Positions 29,714 through 32,290 of a DNA stretch of 32,443 nt are shown here, piece after piece. The notes beneath the pieces were generated by a model, which made no database searches, was not told the DNA's origin, and was given only the letters and a program-made list of their open reading frames with translations. This stretch comes from Bdellovibrio sp. GTDB taxonomy: Bacteria; Myxococcota; SpSt-1050. Made by a program: the position numbers and the translations under genes. The stretch lies in assembly GCA_020725805.1 (NCBI GenBank), contig DYEF01000078.1, positions 1-32,443 on the forward strand, written 5' to 3'. The stretch's first letter is position 1; each line of letters begins with the position of its first letter.

Positions 29714-30493
29714 ATGAACACAACAATAACGGCTCTGATTCTACTCCTGCTCACCCAAAACAACAGCGGAACCGAATTTAAAATACTGGCTGAAGGAATC
29801 GAATACAGCAAAGTCGAACTGAAAAACTACTCCGATTATACAGGAGAGCTTCACCTGATAAGGATAAATCCCCAAATAATCAAACCCCGTGTTCTGATAA
29901 GCAAAGAGCAGAACATCAAACCAATGACTGCAAAAGACTGGTGCAATAAGTTTAATCTGAACATAGCAGTCAATCTGGGTATGTATCATAAGGATTTTTC
30001 AAGCCATGTAGGATACCTTAAAAACGGTGAGTATATAAACAATCCAAAATTTAACGAATATAAATCAGCCCTGCTGATCAATCCGTCAGAAAAGCATATG
30101 CCTTATGCAACAATTATTGACCTCGATAATCCCGACGAAAAGATTATGATAAAAAAATACAACACTGTAGTACAGAATCTGAGACTTATAAAAGGGAATG
30201 GCATCAATGTATGGAAGAAGACAGGTCAGAGCTGGCCGGATGCAGGGATAGGAACTGATAAAAAAGGGAATTTAATTATTTTTTTCACATCAACGCCGGT
30301 TCTGGTCTATGAACTGAATGAGATTCTTCTGAAGCTCCCTCTGGGTATCATTAAGGCATTTCATACGGACGGCGGCCCTCCCGCCAGTCTGTCGGTTCAT
30401 ATCAGGGATTTTCATCTGGATTTGTCGGGAAACTTAATCTCCAAAGAGCAGGAACCGATTCCAAACATATTAGGCTTCGGAACCAGAGACTGA
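29714..30493 (+). CDS. Phosphodiester glycosidase (NAGPA-domain) family protein, probably exported
   Basis: A 259-residue protein. A hydrophobic N-terminus (ALILLLL, about 7-14) looks like a signal peptide, although it lacks positive charges. The body fits the NAGPA/phosphodiester-glycosidase domain: IAVNLGMYHKDFSSHVGYLKNG (start of the core), LRLIKGNGINVW, AGIGTDKKGNLIIFFTSTP, FHTDGGPPASLSV and PNILGFG. The DGGPPASL block is the family's signature loop. Bacterial members act on exported glycan or cell-wall phosphodiesters, but the substrate here is unknown. No good Shine-Dalgarno or promoter is visible. Its last 24 bases overlap the end of the convergent dynamin-like gene. Confidence 0.8.
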   Translation: MNTTITALILLLLTQNNSGTEFKILAEGIEYSKVELKNYSDYTGELHLIRINPQIIKPRVLISKEQNIKPMTAKDWCNKFNLNIAVNLGMYHKDFSSHVGYLKNGEYINNPKFNEYKSALLINPSEKHMPYATIIDLDNPDEKIMIKKYNTVVQNLRLIKGNGINVWKKTGQSWPDAGIGTDKKGNLIIFFTSTPVLVYELNEILLKLPLGIIKAFHTDGGPPASLSVHIRDFHLDLSGNLISKEQEPIPNILGFGTRD

Positions 30494-32185
30494 ATCAGGG
30501 ATAAAGCCCGACACCTCATCCTTGAGAGCCAAGAGTTTCTTTACTTCGCTGTCGACTTTACCTTCCCCTTCCCTGACAACTGATTCTGCATAATTTATGG
30601 CTTCATTCGTACGTTCCACAATATCTGTAATCATCTTCCTGAAATCTGCCTCAATCTTTCTCCGGCTCTCGATTATTCTCTGGTTTATATCTCCGTTATA
30701 TCTCGAACAGTTGGCATATATAAGCCAGTCCAGATAATCTTTAAGTTCACCTTTCATCCTCGTCAATCTGCTCCGCGCAGGCAGAAAGAGATTTATGAGC
30801 AAATTCAGCGGTGAGGAAGATGTATATCTCATAAAATGGTGAAAATAAAAGTCGCTCTTACTGCACATTGATGTATCAATACCGGCTATCAGTTCAGTAA
30901 AACTGTCAAGATTCACTATCCCCTCAATTCTCCCGATCAGCTTTTTCAACTCATATGCATACCGTTCCATAAATTCGCTGTATAATCTGCTGGAATTGGA
31001 TTTTATCTCATTAATACACATAAAGACATACTTTTCGGCGATACTATGCATCTGGTTGTAATAATATTCCCTGCCGCTGGAAGGTTTCTGCATAAAACTC
31101 TTGAAGAGATTTTCGAATTCTTCATCAATCTCTGCCCTGCGGCTTTCGATAAACTTCTTCTGCTCGATATCTATCAGCTGGGAAATCCTGTCCTGCTCTG
31201 CCTGAAACCTGTAACCGAGTTCCCTTAAGAAAATCTCTGACTCTTTCCTGAAATTAAGAAGGACCTCTGCCTGATTCTTTGTCTCATCGAGCGGCTTTTT
31301 CAATACAGAAATATACCTGTCTATCTCATATACGAGCTGCTCAGACAACCTCTTAAGTGCATTTTTGTAGCTGACAGAGATTATCTCGGCTTTATTATTG
31401 AGCATATTCTCGATTTTGTGATTGAATTTCTCCCAGTCAAAAGTAATTCTGCCTTCGAGCCTGTCTTTGGAACTTAGACAGTAAATGACGGGGTTTTCAT
31501 CTCCAATCTCTTTTTTCAGAACATCGGCAGTAAACTTTTTTATAGTATTAATACTTTCGGCATTCTCCTTGTCAACCTTATTGATAACAAATATCAGTTC
31601 CTTTACCCTGTCCTTTATCTGCCTTATAATCTGCAATTCATCGTACGAGACGGGTGGGTCTGTACCAAGGACGATTACAGCTGTATCGATGTTCTGGATG
31701 AAACCCTTTGTTACCATTGTGTTGGATTCGAATACAGAACTTATTCCCGGGGTATCTACGATAAAAAGACCTCTTCTCAGATATTCATTAGGGAGTCTGA
31801 TATCCAGATAAGCAATATTTTTTATATTGTCCGGATTCTCTTCCTGTGTCGCATAAAGGTAAATGTCACCAAGCTGAATCCTTTCCTCACTGCCATCAAG
31901 TTTTTTGAGAATACAGAATCTCTCATCCGAATATCTAATTACAGAGACAACAGCTGTTACAGGGATCAGTCCGTATGGTAGGATACTCTCTCCAAGAAAG
32001 GCATTGATAAGAGATGATTTGCCACGCTTAAACTGACCCAGAAAAACAATATTGAAACCACCTTTCAGCAATCTCTCTGATATCTCATTCGAATCCCTCT
32101 CGATAAAATTCAGCCTGAGACCTCTGGCAATCTCTGATATGCGGCTAAGTCTGTCGTTGTTTGGTATAATCGTCTGGAATGACAT
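30470..32185 (-). CDS. Bacterial dynamin-like GTPase, under a fluoride riboswitch
   Basis: A 571-residue large GTPase of the dynamin superfamily. G-domain motifs are G1 GQFKRGKS (50-57), switch-I Thr77 in PVTAVV, G3 DTPGI (144-148) and G4 NKVD (202-205). A long helical stalk of about 350 residues follows, with a moderately hydrophobic patch (SSPLNLLINLFLPA, about residues 450-465) that could insert into membrane. Bacterial dynamin-like proteins bind and remodel or protect the membrane. Here the gene is alone, and its leader is a fluoride aptamer whose 3' strand can pair with AGGAGG just before ATG 32185. Expression is therefore predicted to rise with intracellular fluoride. The last 24 bases overlap the convergent glycosidase-like gene. 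Its biochemical link to fluoride is unknown. Confidence 0.88.
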   Translation of the reverse strand: MSFQTIIPNNDRLSRISEIARGLRLNFIERDSNEISERLLKGGFNIVFLGQFKRGKSSLINAFLGESILPYGLIPVTAVVSVIRYSDERFCILKKLDGSEERIQLGDIYLYATQEENPDNIKNIAYLDIRLPNEYLRRGLFIVDTPGISSVFESNTMVTKGFIQNIDTAVIVLGTDPPVSYDELQIIRQIKDRVKELIFVINKVDKENAESINTIKKFTADVLKKEIGDENPVIYCLSSKDRLEGRITFDWEKFNHKIENMLNNKAEIISVSYKNALKRLSEQLVYEIDRYISVLKKPLDETKNQAEVLLNFRKESEIFLRELGYRFQAEQDRISQLIDIEQKKFIESRRAEIDEEFENLFKSFMQKPSSGREYYYNQMHSIAEKYVFMCINEIKSNSSRLYSEFMERYAYELKKLIGRIEGIVNLDSFTELIAGIDTSMCSKSDFYFHHFMRYTSSSPLNLLINLFLPARSRLTRMKGELKDYLDWLIYANCSRYNGDINQRIIESRRKIEADFRKMITDIVERTNEAINYAESVVREGEGKVDSEVKKLLALKDEVSGFIPDSVSGSEA

Positions 32186-32190
32186 AAATC

Positions 32191-32214
32191 CTCCTGCTAT
32201 TTAATAAGCAGGAG
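32191..32214 (-). promoter_or_regulatory. Shine-Dalgarno-sequestering hairpin (expression platform of the fluoride riboswitch)
   Basis: On the minus strand CTCCTGC (32214-32208) can pair with GCAGGAG (32197-32191) across a 10-nt A/U loop. The second arm contains the Shine-Dalgarno AGGAGG of the GTPase gene. The first arm shares its CUCC with the aptamer pseudoknot strand GACUCC (32216-32211), so hairpin and ligand-bound pseudoknot exclude each other: fluoride binding should free the ribosome-binding site. Confidence 0.82.
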
Positions 32215-32253
32215 TCATCAGCCTCCCGGCGGTTTACGGAGGACTCCATCTCC
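32207..32253 (-). ncRNA. Fluoride riboswitch aptamer (crcB motif)
   Basis: Read on the minus strand from 32253: GGAGAUG, then GGAGUC overlapping CCUCC, GUAAACCGCC, GGGA, GGCUGAUGACUCCUGC. This matches the crcB/fluoride RNA order: P-stem GGAG/CUCC, the invariant GAUG, the AAAC-CGCC joining segment, a short GCC/GGC hairpin, and the invariant UGAUG followed by the pseudoknot strand. The pseudoknot is a perfect 6 bp, GGAGUC with GACUCC. It compares closely with the known Thermotoga and Pseudomonas aptamers; the only notable departure is CUGC in place of the common 3' CUAC. The aptamer begins within about 2 nt of the predicted transcription start and lies directly upstream of a dynamin-like GTPase gene. 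Confidence 0.92.
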
Positions 32254-32261
32254 TGAGTTAT

Positions 32262-32290
32262 TTATTACACTAAATAATAAGCTGTGTCAA
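32262..32290 (-). promoter_or_regulatory. Sigma-70 promoter of the riboswitch-GTPase transcript
   Basis: On the minus strand TTGACA (32290-32285), a 17-bp spacer and TAATAA (32267-32262). The transcription start is predicted at 32254-32255, immediately before the aptamer GG at 32253, so the RNA begins with the riboswitch. The -35 element lies only about 20 bp from the putative IS end. Confidence 0.85.

Follow-up and report, generated by a model that had tools for sequence, protein, structure and literature searches.

In the genome of a Bdellovibrio sp. assigned to the Myxococcota (GenBank assembly GCA_020725805.1), a fluoride riboswitch lies directly upstream of a gene for a dynamin-like GTPase. 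Both are encoded on the minus strand of contig DYEF01000078.1, of which we analyzed positions 1 to 32,443 (this stretch of 32,443 nucleotides [nt] is termed the window herein, and positions refer to it unless a locus handle is given). The initial annotation of the window had proposed that the riboswitch controls this GTPase in place of a fluoride exporter. This proposal has held up: the leader strongly matches the Rfam fluoride riboswitch family RF01734, the aptamer is kept in front of homologous genes, and neither Fluc (PF02537) nor CLC (PF00654) was detected in the genome, which is 97.9% complete and in which an assembly gap is possible. Judged by sequence comparison, the GTPase is almost certainly dedicated to the fluoride response. 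The overall best explanation, to which we give a probability of roughly 60%, is that it is a fluoride-induced, dynamin-like membrane GTPase.

A complete fluoride aptamer in the leader of the GTPase gene

A covariance search with the Rfam models returned a single match in the window, the fluoride aptamer (RF01734, crcB motif) at positions 32262-32202 on the minus strand. It covers model positions 1 to 64 completely and scores 60.0 bits (E = 1.9e-14; gathering score, 34 bits), in agreement with a search of the whole genome, which recovered the same site; the crcB-type aptamer named in the initial annotation is thereby borne out. The P1 stem, GGAG/CUCC, spans 32238-32253 (arms 32253-32250 and 32241-32238), and the pseudoknot is formed by GGAGUC (32242-32247) and GACUCC (32211-32216), which pair perfectly at all six positions, as had been read from the sequence before. 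The nucleotides that coordinate Mg2+ and fluoride in the structure of the Thermotoga petrophila aptamer (A6, U7, G8, U38, A40, U41, G42, and U48 in that numbering) are all present in the window aptamer.

Comparison of 52 GTPase-linked aptamers from homologous loci showed that 96% of the cells of the whole structure were paired, with 97.6% for P1, which covaries, and 100% for the pseudoknot, in which four of the six pairs showed compensatory changes; controls with shifted partners reached 35 to 55%. This combination of pairing and compensatory change indicates functional aptamers rather than relics. The window aptamer itself is typical of its class, with P1, P2, a 6-bp pseudoknot whose 3' strand lies within the expression platform, and a predicted ON switch. 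What differs is the gene that it controls, since a dynamin-like effector is new relative to the published target lists consulted (PMC2864571, PMC11139923).

The aptamer had also been described as being entered directly from a consensus-like promoter. A perfect -35 element, TTGACA (32285-32290), is indeed present, followed after a 17-nt spacer by a probable -10 element, TAATAA (32262-32267), from which the transcription start site would fall just 5' of P1. TAATAA is, however, a weak match to the consensus, and a strict sigma-70 scan accepted no full promoter at this pair, so this part of the description is only partly confirmed.

A hairpin at the ribosome-binding site is predicted to act as the switch

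The initial annotation had overlooked the element that supplies a switching mechanism. Directly 3' of the aptamer, the leader reads CTCCTGCT-TATTAAAT-AGCAGGAG, in which the outer segments form a perfect 8-bp hairpin with an 8-nt loop (32214-32191). Its 3' arm contains the Shine-Dalgarno (SD) sequence of the GTPase gene, AGGAGG (32190-32195), with the ATG start codon 4 nt downstream, and the CUCC of its 5' arm is also part of the 3' strand of the pseudoknot. Because the two structures use the same CUCC strand, they are mutually exclusive, and their competition implies that fluoride should expose the ribosome-binding site, as in a translational ON switch. In the absence of fluoride, the terminal part of the leader would fold into the hairpin, bury the ribosome-binding site, and keep the gene off; with fluoride, the aptamer would close the pseudoknot with CUCC and block the hairpin, freeing the SD sequence and allowing synthesis of the GTPase.

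What can be read directly from the sequence is the aptamer, the intact gene, and the two competing pairings. Fluoride binding and fluoride-dependent expression are predictions that should apply to the window leader, given the established behavior of RF01734 RNAs, and regulation of the GTPase gene by the riboswitch is strongly supported by sequence evidence. The sister species G001, which provides the only congeneric genome, keeps the aptamer and both hairpin arms with a changed loop, and in relatives the same overlap with the pseudoknot takes the form of either a hairpin that buries the SD sequence or a terminator followed by a run of T.

The riboswitch-GTPase pairing recurs across phyla

One genome per species was scanned with an alignment of five relatives, and the best 80 homologs were selected by protein similarity alone; 4 of them start at a contig end and could not be judged, which leaves 76 informative homologs. 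Using our covariance model R1, we found an aptamer on the coding strand of the gene and less than 700 nt in front of it for 53 of the 80, and elsewhere in the fetched stretch for 13 more. Whole-genome searches with the Rfam model added four linked homologs, one with a directly upstream aptamer (L116) and three with an aptamer nearby (L104, L109, and L130), and among these were sites that R1 had missed (L116 and L130). Altogether, 70 of the 76 informative homologs have a fluoride riboswitch directly upstream or nearby. As R1 draws in part on aptamers linked to the GTPase, circularity was considered and rejected: RF01734 itself called the aptamer in 14 of 14 loci checked, and the Rfam searches of whole genomes agreed. 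The leader kept across homologous GTPases is thus the aptamer and not a generic hairpin. The carriers include Deltaproteobacteria, Myxococcales, Acidobacteria, Nitrospirae, Planctomycetes (Brocadia and Kuenenia), Aquificota, Bacillota (Moorella, Sporomusaceae, and Desulfallas), Synergistaceae, and Anaerolineae, among others. A contig labeled Methanofollis (L114) places a GTPase and riboswitch, together with a divergent second riboswitch and GTPase, in an archaeal bin, although it may be misbinned.

An evenly drawn, independent sample of 247 Desulfobacterota genomes gave the same picture. Here, 35 of 44 family members (proteins scoring >140 bits) lay directly behind a fluoride riboswitch (<500 nt), with 4 more nearby, and 35 of the 134 fluoride riboswitches preceded a family member. 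A riboswitch was present in 41 of the 42 genomes that hold the GTPase and in 51 of the 205 that do not (Fisher p = 7e-20). Among Bacillota, the Rfam model at its strict cut-off placed a riboswitch within about 1.5 kb of 19 of the best 30 members. As an internal control, 40 carrier genomes were examined: of their 49 strong family members, 45 had a fluoride riboswitch within 12 kb (directly upstream in 29 cases), versus 0 of 21 other proteins with a Dynamin_N domain in the same genomes. This null result and the unbiased Desulfobacterota sample rule out chance colocation.

The riboswitch-linked proteins form one clade with the other dynamin-like proteins (DLPs) outside it (SH-aLRT, 99), in a quick tree in which the window protein sits on a long branch. 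The sequence between G1 and G3 includes an NPxN motif in 80 of 82 clade proteins and in no true outsider. That a clade with this signature is almost confined to fluoride riboswitch loci across phyla is the reason for regarding the GTPase as a dedicated fluoride response component.

In the source genome, the window protein is the only Dynamin_N protein found. The genome contains one other fluoride riboswitch (G000:C48:30879-30939; L069:6880-6940, minus strand; 51.3 bits), which precedes a Na+/H+ antiporter gene by 18 nt, on a different contig from that of the GTPase. In that leader, GAGGTG, which resembles an SD sequence, can base pair with CACCTC in P1 of the same aptamer, and the two may form an expression platform unlike that of the window.

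The gene product has the domain order of bacterial dynamin-like proteins

The GTPase gene is an intact open reading frame (ORF) for 571 amino acids (30470-32185, minus strand), the product of which contains a Dynamin_N domain (PF00350; 83.8 bits versus a cut-off of 27), consistent with its earlier assignment to the dynamin superfamily. It is also, as had been stated, the sole gene downstream of the aptamer: the next ORF (29714-30493, plus strand) is convergent and overlaps its 3' end by 24 bp. The G1 motif or P-loop, GQFKRGKS (residues 50 to 57; 32015-32038), has G50, F52, K53, R54, G55, and K56 invariant in 39 homologs. The clade signature NPxN (N117, P118, and N120 of residues 117 to 120; 31826-31837) is invariant in alignment A3. 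G3 is DTPG (residues 144 to 147; 31745-31756), which is invariant in the alignment, and G4 is NKVD (residues 202 to 205; 31571-31582), with K203 and D205 invariant and N202 nearly so.

Profile comparison gave matches to BDLP1 (3.9e-47), IniA (4.2e-32), and the Campylobacter jejuni DLP pair. A confident AlphaFold2 model (mean pLDDT, 85.7) consists of a GTPase head and a long helical neck and trunk, and its best Foldseek matches were BDLP, IniA, the C. jejuni DLP, and mitofusins. Between two long trunk helices (residues 372 to 421 and 470 to 538), the model has a loop of lower pLDDT where a paddle is expected; this flexible tip (residues 422 to 470; 30776-30922) presumably binds the membrane. 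It is only mildly hydrophobic, and homologs have a mildly hydrophobic segment at the same position. Against the NCBIfam DynA equivalog model NF052648, the protein stayed below the cut-off (59 of the 1,600 bits needed). By prediction from these relationships, the GTPase would hydrolyze GTP, assemble, and remodel membranes.

Proposed role of the GTPase at the membrane and alternative explanations

As a fluoride-induced membrane GTPase, the protein would polymerize on the inner membrane and remodel or seal it under fluoride, hydrogen fluoride (HF), and acid stress, and would thereby complement exporters and antiporters. DynA accumulates where membranes are damaged, whereas the drug-induced IniA performs fission (PMC8844932, PMC6715688); fluoride enters cells in the form of HF and reduces the proton-motive force (PMC11139923). 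A membrane role is favored because the relatives by fold act on stressed membranes and because HF entry has this effect, and by homology to BDLP, DynA, and IniA, sealing or remodeling of the membrane under fluoride may be the likeliest job, at about even odds.

Several observations weigh against this explanation. The Foldseek matches on which the membrane role leans share 16 to 18% identity with the model and have whole-length TM-scores of 0.3 to 0.4, values that are in keeping with hinged molecules whose domain angles differ and therefore support the fold class and domain order rather than the detailed shape. The protein has neither a transmembrane segment nor strong hydrophobicity at the paddle. 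A few homologs (L102 and L108) come from genomes without a detectable fluoride riboswitch. In the sister species (L051:8225-8813), the riboswitch and SD hairpin are kept while the GTPase gene lacks most of its coding region (approximately residues 31 to 425) and is out of frame, and in genome G120 (L055:5688-6367), a riboswitch is followed by a Fluc gene, immediately behind which a short remnant of a GTPase gene from this family is found. This loss and this remnant imply that the GTPase is dispensable in some lineages.

The initial annotation had offered two guesses at the role, a protected enzyme and a membrane factor, of which the latter appears to fit better. Dynamin-family GTPases bind aluminum fluoride together with GDP. 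If fluoride inhibited the enzyme in this manner (GDP with AlF4-, BeF3-, or MgF3- in the active site), the cell might simply make more of it, as is thought for enolase and pyrophosphatase, which are recognized as such targets of riboswitches (PMC11139923, PMC5533749) and adjoin the GTPase in several loci. Such compensation needs a housekeeping GTPase, however, and the genome's only Dynamin_N protein is itself switched; the family is a separate fluoride locus clade and not the second copy of an ordinary gene, and the other DLPs of the same genomes are free of riboswitch control. A dedicated clade whose only copy is switched hardly resembles a housekeeping enzyme being topped up, and we consider this explanation unlikely. 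No more probable is a helper function, in which the GTPase would assemble, cluster, or gate adjoining fluoride or proton transporters. Its neighbors in the 80 loci do include CPA-type Na+/H+ antiporters (18 loci), MFS transporters (14), DUF190/CBS proteins (13), and Fluc (11), and G075 has an operon of riboswitch, CLC, Fluc, and GTPase. Yet the gene stands alone in the window and in many other loci, its own genome lacks a detected Fluc or CLC, its antiporter is on another contig, and G005 also lacks Fluc.

Aluminum fluoride traps dynamins in the transition state. A GTPase that is both made and activated by fluoride might accordingly be locked by fluoride-metal complexes into a lasting membrane coat, and its fold is that of filament-forming DLPs. 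Free aluminum or beryllium is presumably scarce in most of the anoxic habitats of the carriers, and we regard this variant as quite improbable. That the aptamer is left over from a lost exporter gene with an unrelated GTPase behind it by chance has been refuted in effect: although the sister species demonstrates that a leader can outlive its gene, the same pairing is found in many phyla and for 35 of the 44 members in the Desulfobacterota sample, the pseudoknot covaries, and the perfect platform hairpin uses the SD sequence of the GTPase gene itself. A phage defense function was considered on account of LeoA and LeoBC dynamins (PADLOC), which the protein weakly resembles in profile comparisons of the GTPase and trunk regions, and was rejected because of the weak scores; no Leo partner genes were identified in the neighborhoods examined.

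Relation to known dynamins and to fluoride resistance

The best profile and fold match of the fluoride-associated GTPase is BDLP1 of Nostoc punctiforme (2j68/2j69), with which it shares the Dynamin_N GTPase domain and the long helical neck and trunk. The two differ in that the window protein is shorter, with about 16 to 18% identity over the fold match, and in that BDLP1 has no fluoride link. IniA of mycobacteria and DynA of Bacillus subtilis are likewise stress-related bacterial DLPs (PMC6715688, PMC8844932), but they are not riboswitch controlled, and DynA is a double-length fusion. The combination of fluoride, riboswitch, and dynamin was not found in the literature searched, although Baker et al. 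2012 may list such a target in their tables, and a 2024 review of fluoride responses names neither a GTPase nor a dynamin (PMC11139923).

Fluoride resistance is currently explained by exporters, antiporters, and the replacement of inhibited enzymes. Beside export and enzyme replacement, a clade of riboswitch-made dynamin-like GTPases that remodel or seal the membrane could constitute a third arm, with the GTPase and the Na+/H+ antiporter as the main riboswitch-controlled response in this genome without detected Fluc or CLC; we put this forward tentatively, at slightly less than an even chance. Positioned directly behind about one-quarter of the fluoride riboswitches in the sampled phylum, the GTPase would rank among the major targets of the class. 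It points to membrane damage or remodeling as an unstudied part of fluoride toxicity and gives a little-understood group of bacterial dynamins a defined inducing signal, which makes their function directly testable.

Neighboring genes and clusters of fluoride riboswitches

Neighbors were assigned by homology, as longest-ORF calling yields antisense artifacts in GC-rich loci. Besides the transporters and DUF190/CBS proteins given above, the 80 loci contain enolase (11 loci), Usp (11), MutS-like proteins (7), and pyrophosphatase (3). Fluoride riboswitch targets in the literature include antiporters, Fluc, enolase, pyrophosphatase, and MutS, and Usp belongs to the fluoride operon of E. cloacae (PMC11139923, PMC2864571, PMC5533749). 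Locus L149 unites many of these in one stretch, with riboswitch-enolase, riboswitch-antiporter-Usp-DUF190-Fluc, and riboswitch-GTPase units followed by MutS. The riboswitch-controlled enolase, Usp, pyrophosphatase, and Fluc of known fluoride resistance operons and islands are thus found again here (L076, L084, L128, and L149), with the difference that they are regularly joined by a dynamin-like GTPase, which is often preceded by its own riboswitch.

Three further protein groups were observed at these loci. The recurrent MFS transporter lies directly behind a riboswitch at L099:403-1626 and is a candidate fluoride regulon transporter. DUF190 proteins, sometimes fused to CBS domains, repeatedly occur beside Fluc and under the control of fluoride riboswitches, at L073:1390-2676 and 12 further loci. 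DUF6062 proteins lie close to fluoride riboswitches in the genomes of anammox bacteria and their relatives (L139, L145, and L109). Back-to-back fluoride riboswitches on divergent genes, often with an antiporter on one side and the GTPase on the other, occur in L080, L082, L094, L097, L122, and L076. Islands with five to nine fluoride riboswitches per contig were found in G147:C163, G151:C61, G148:C5, and G157:C12 (L230 to L235), and the island on G147:C163 also carries five dynamin-like genes.

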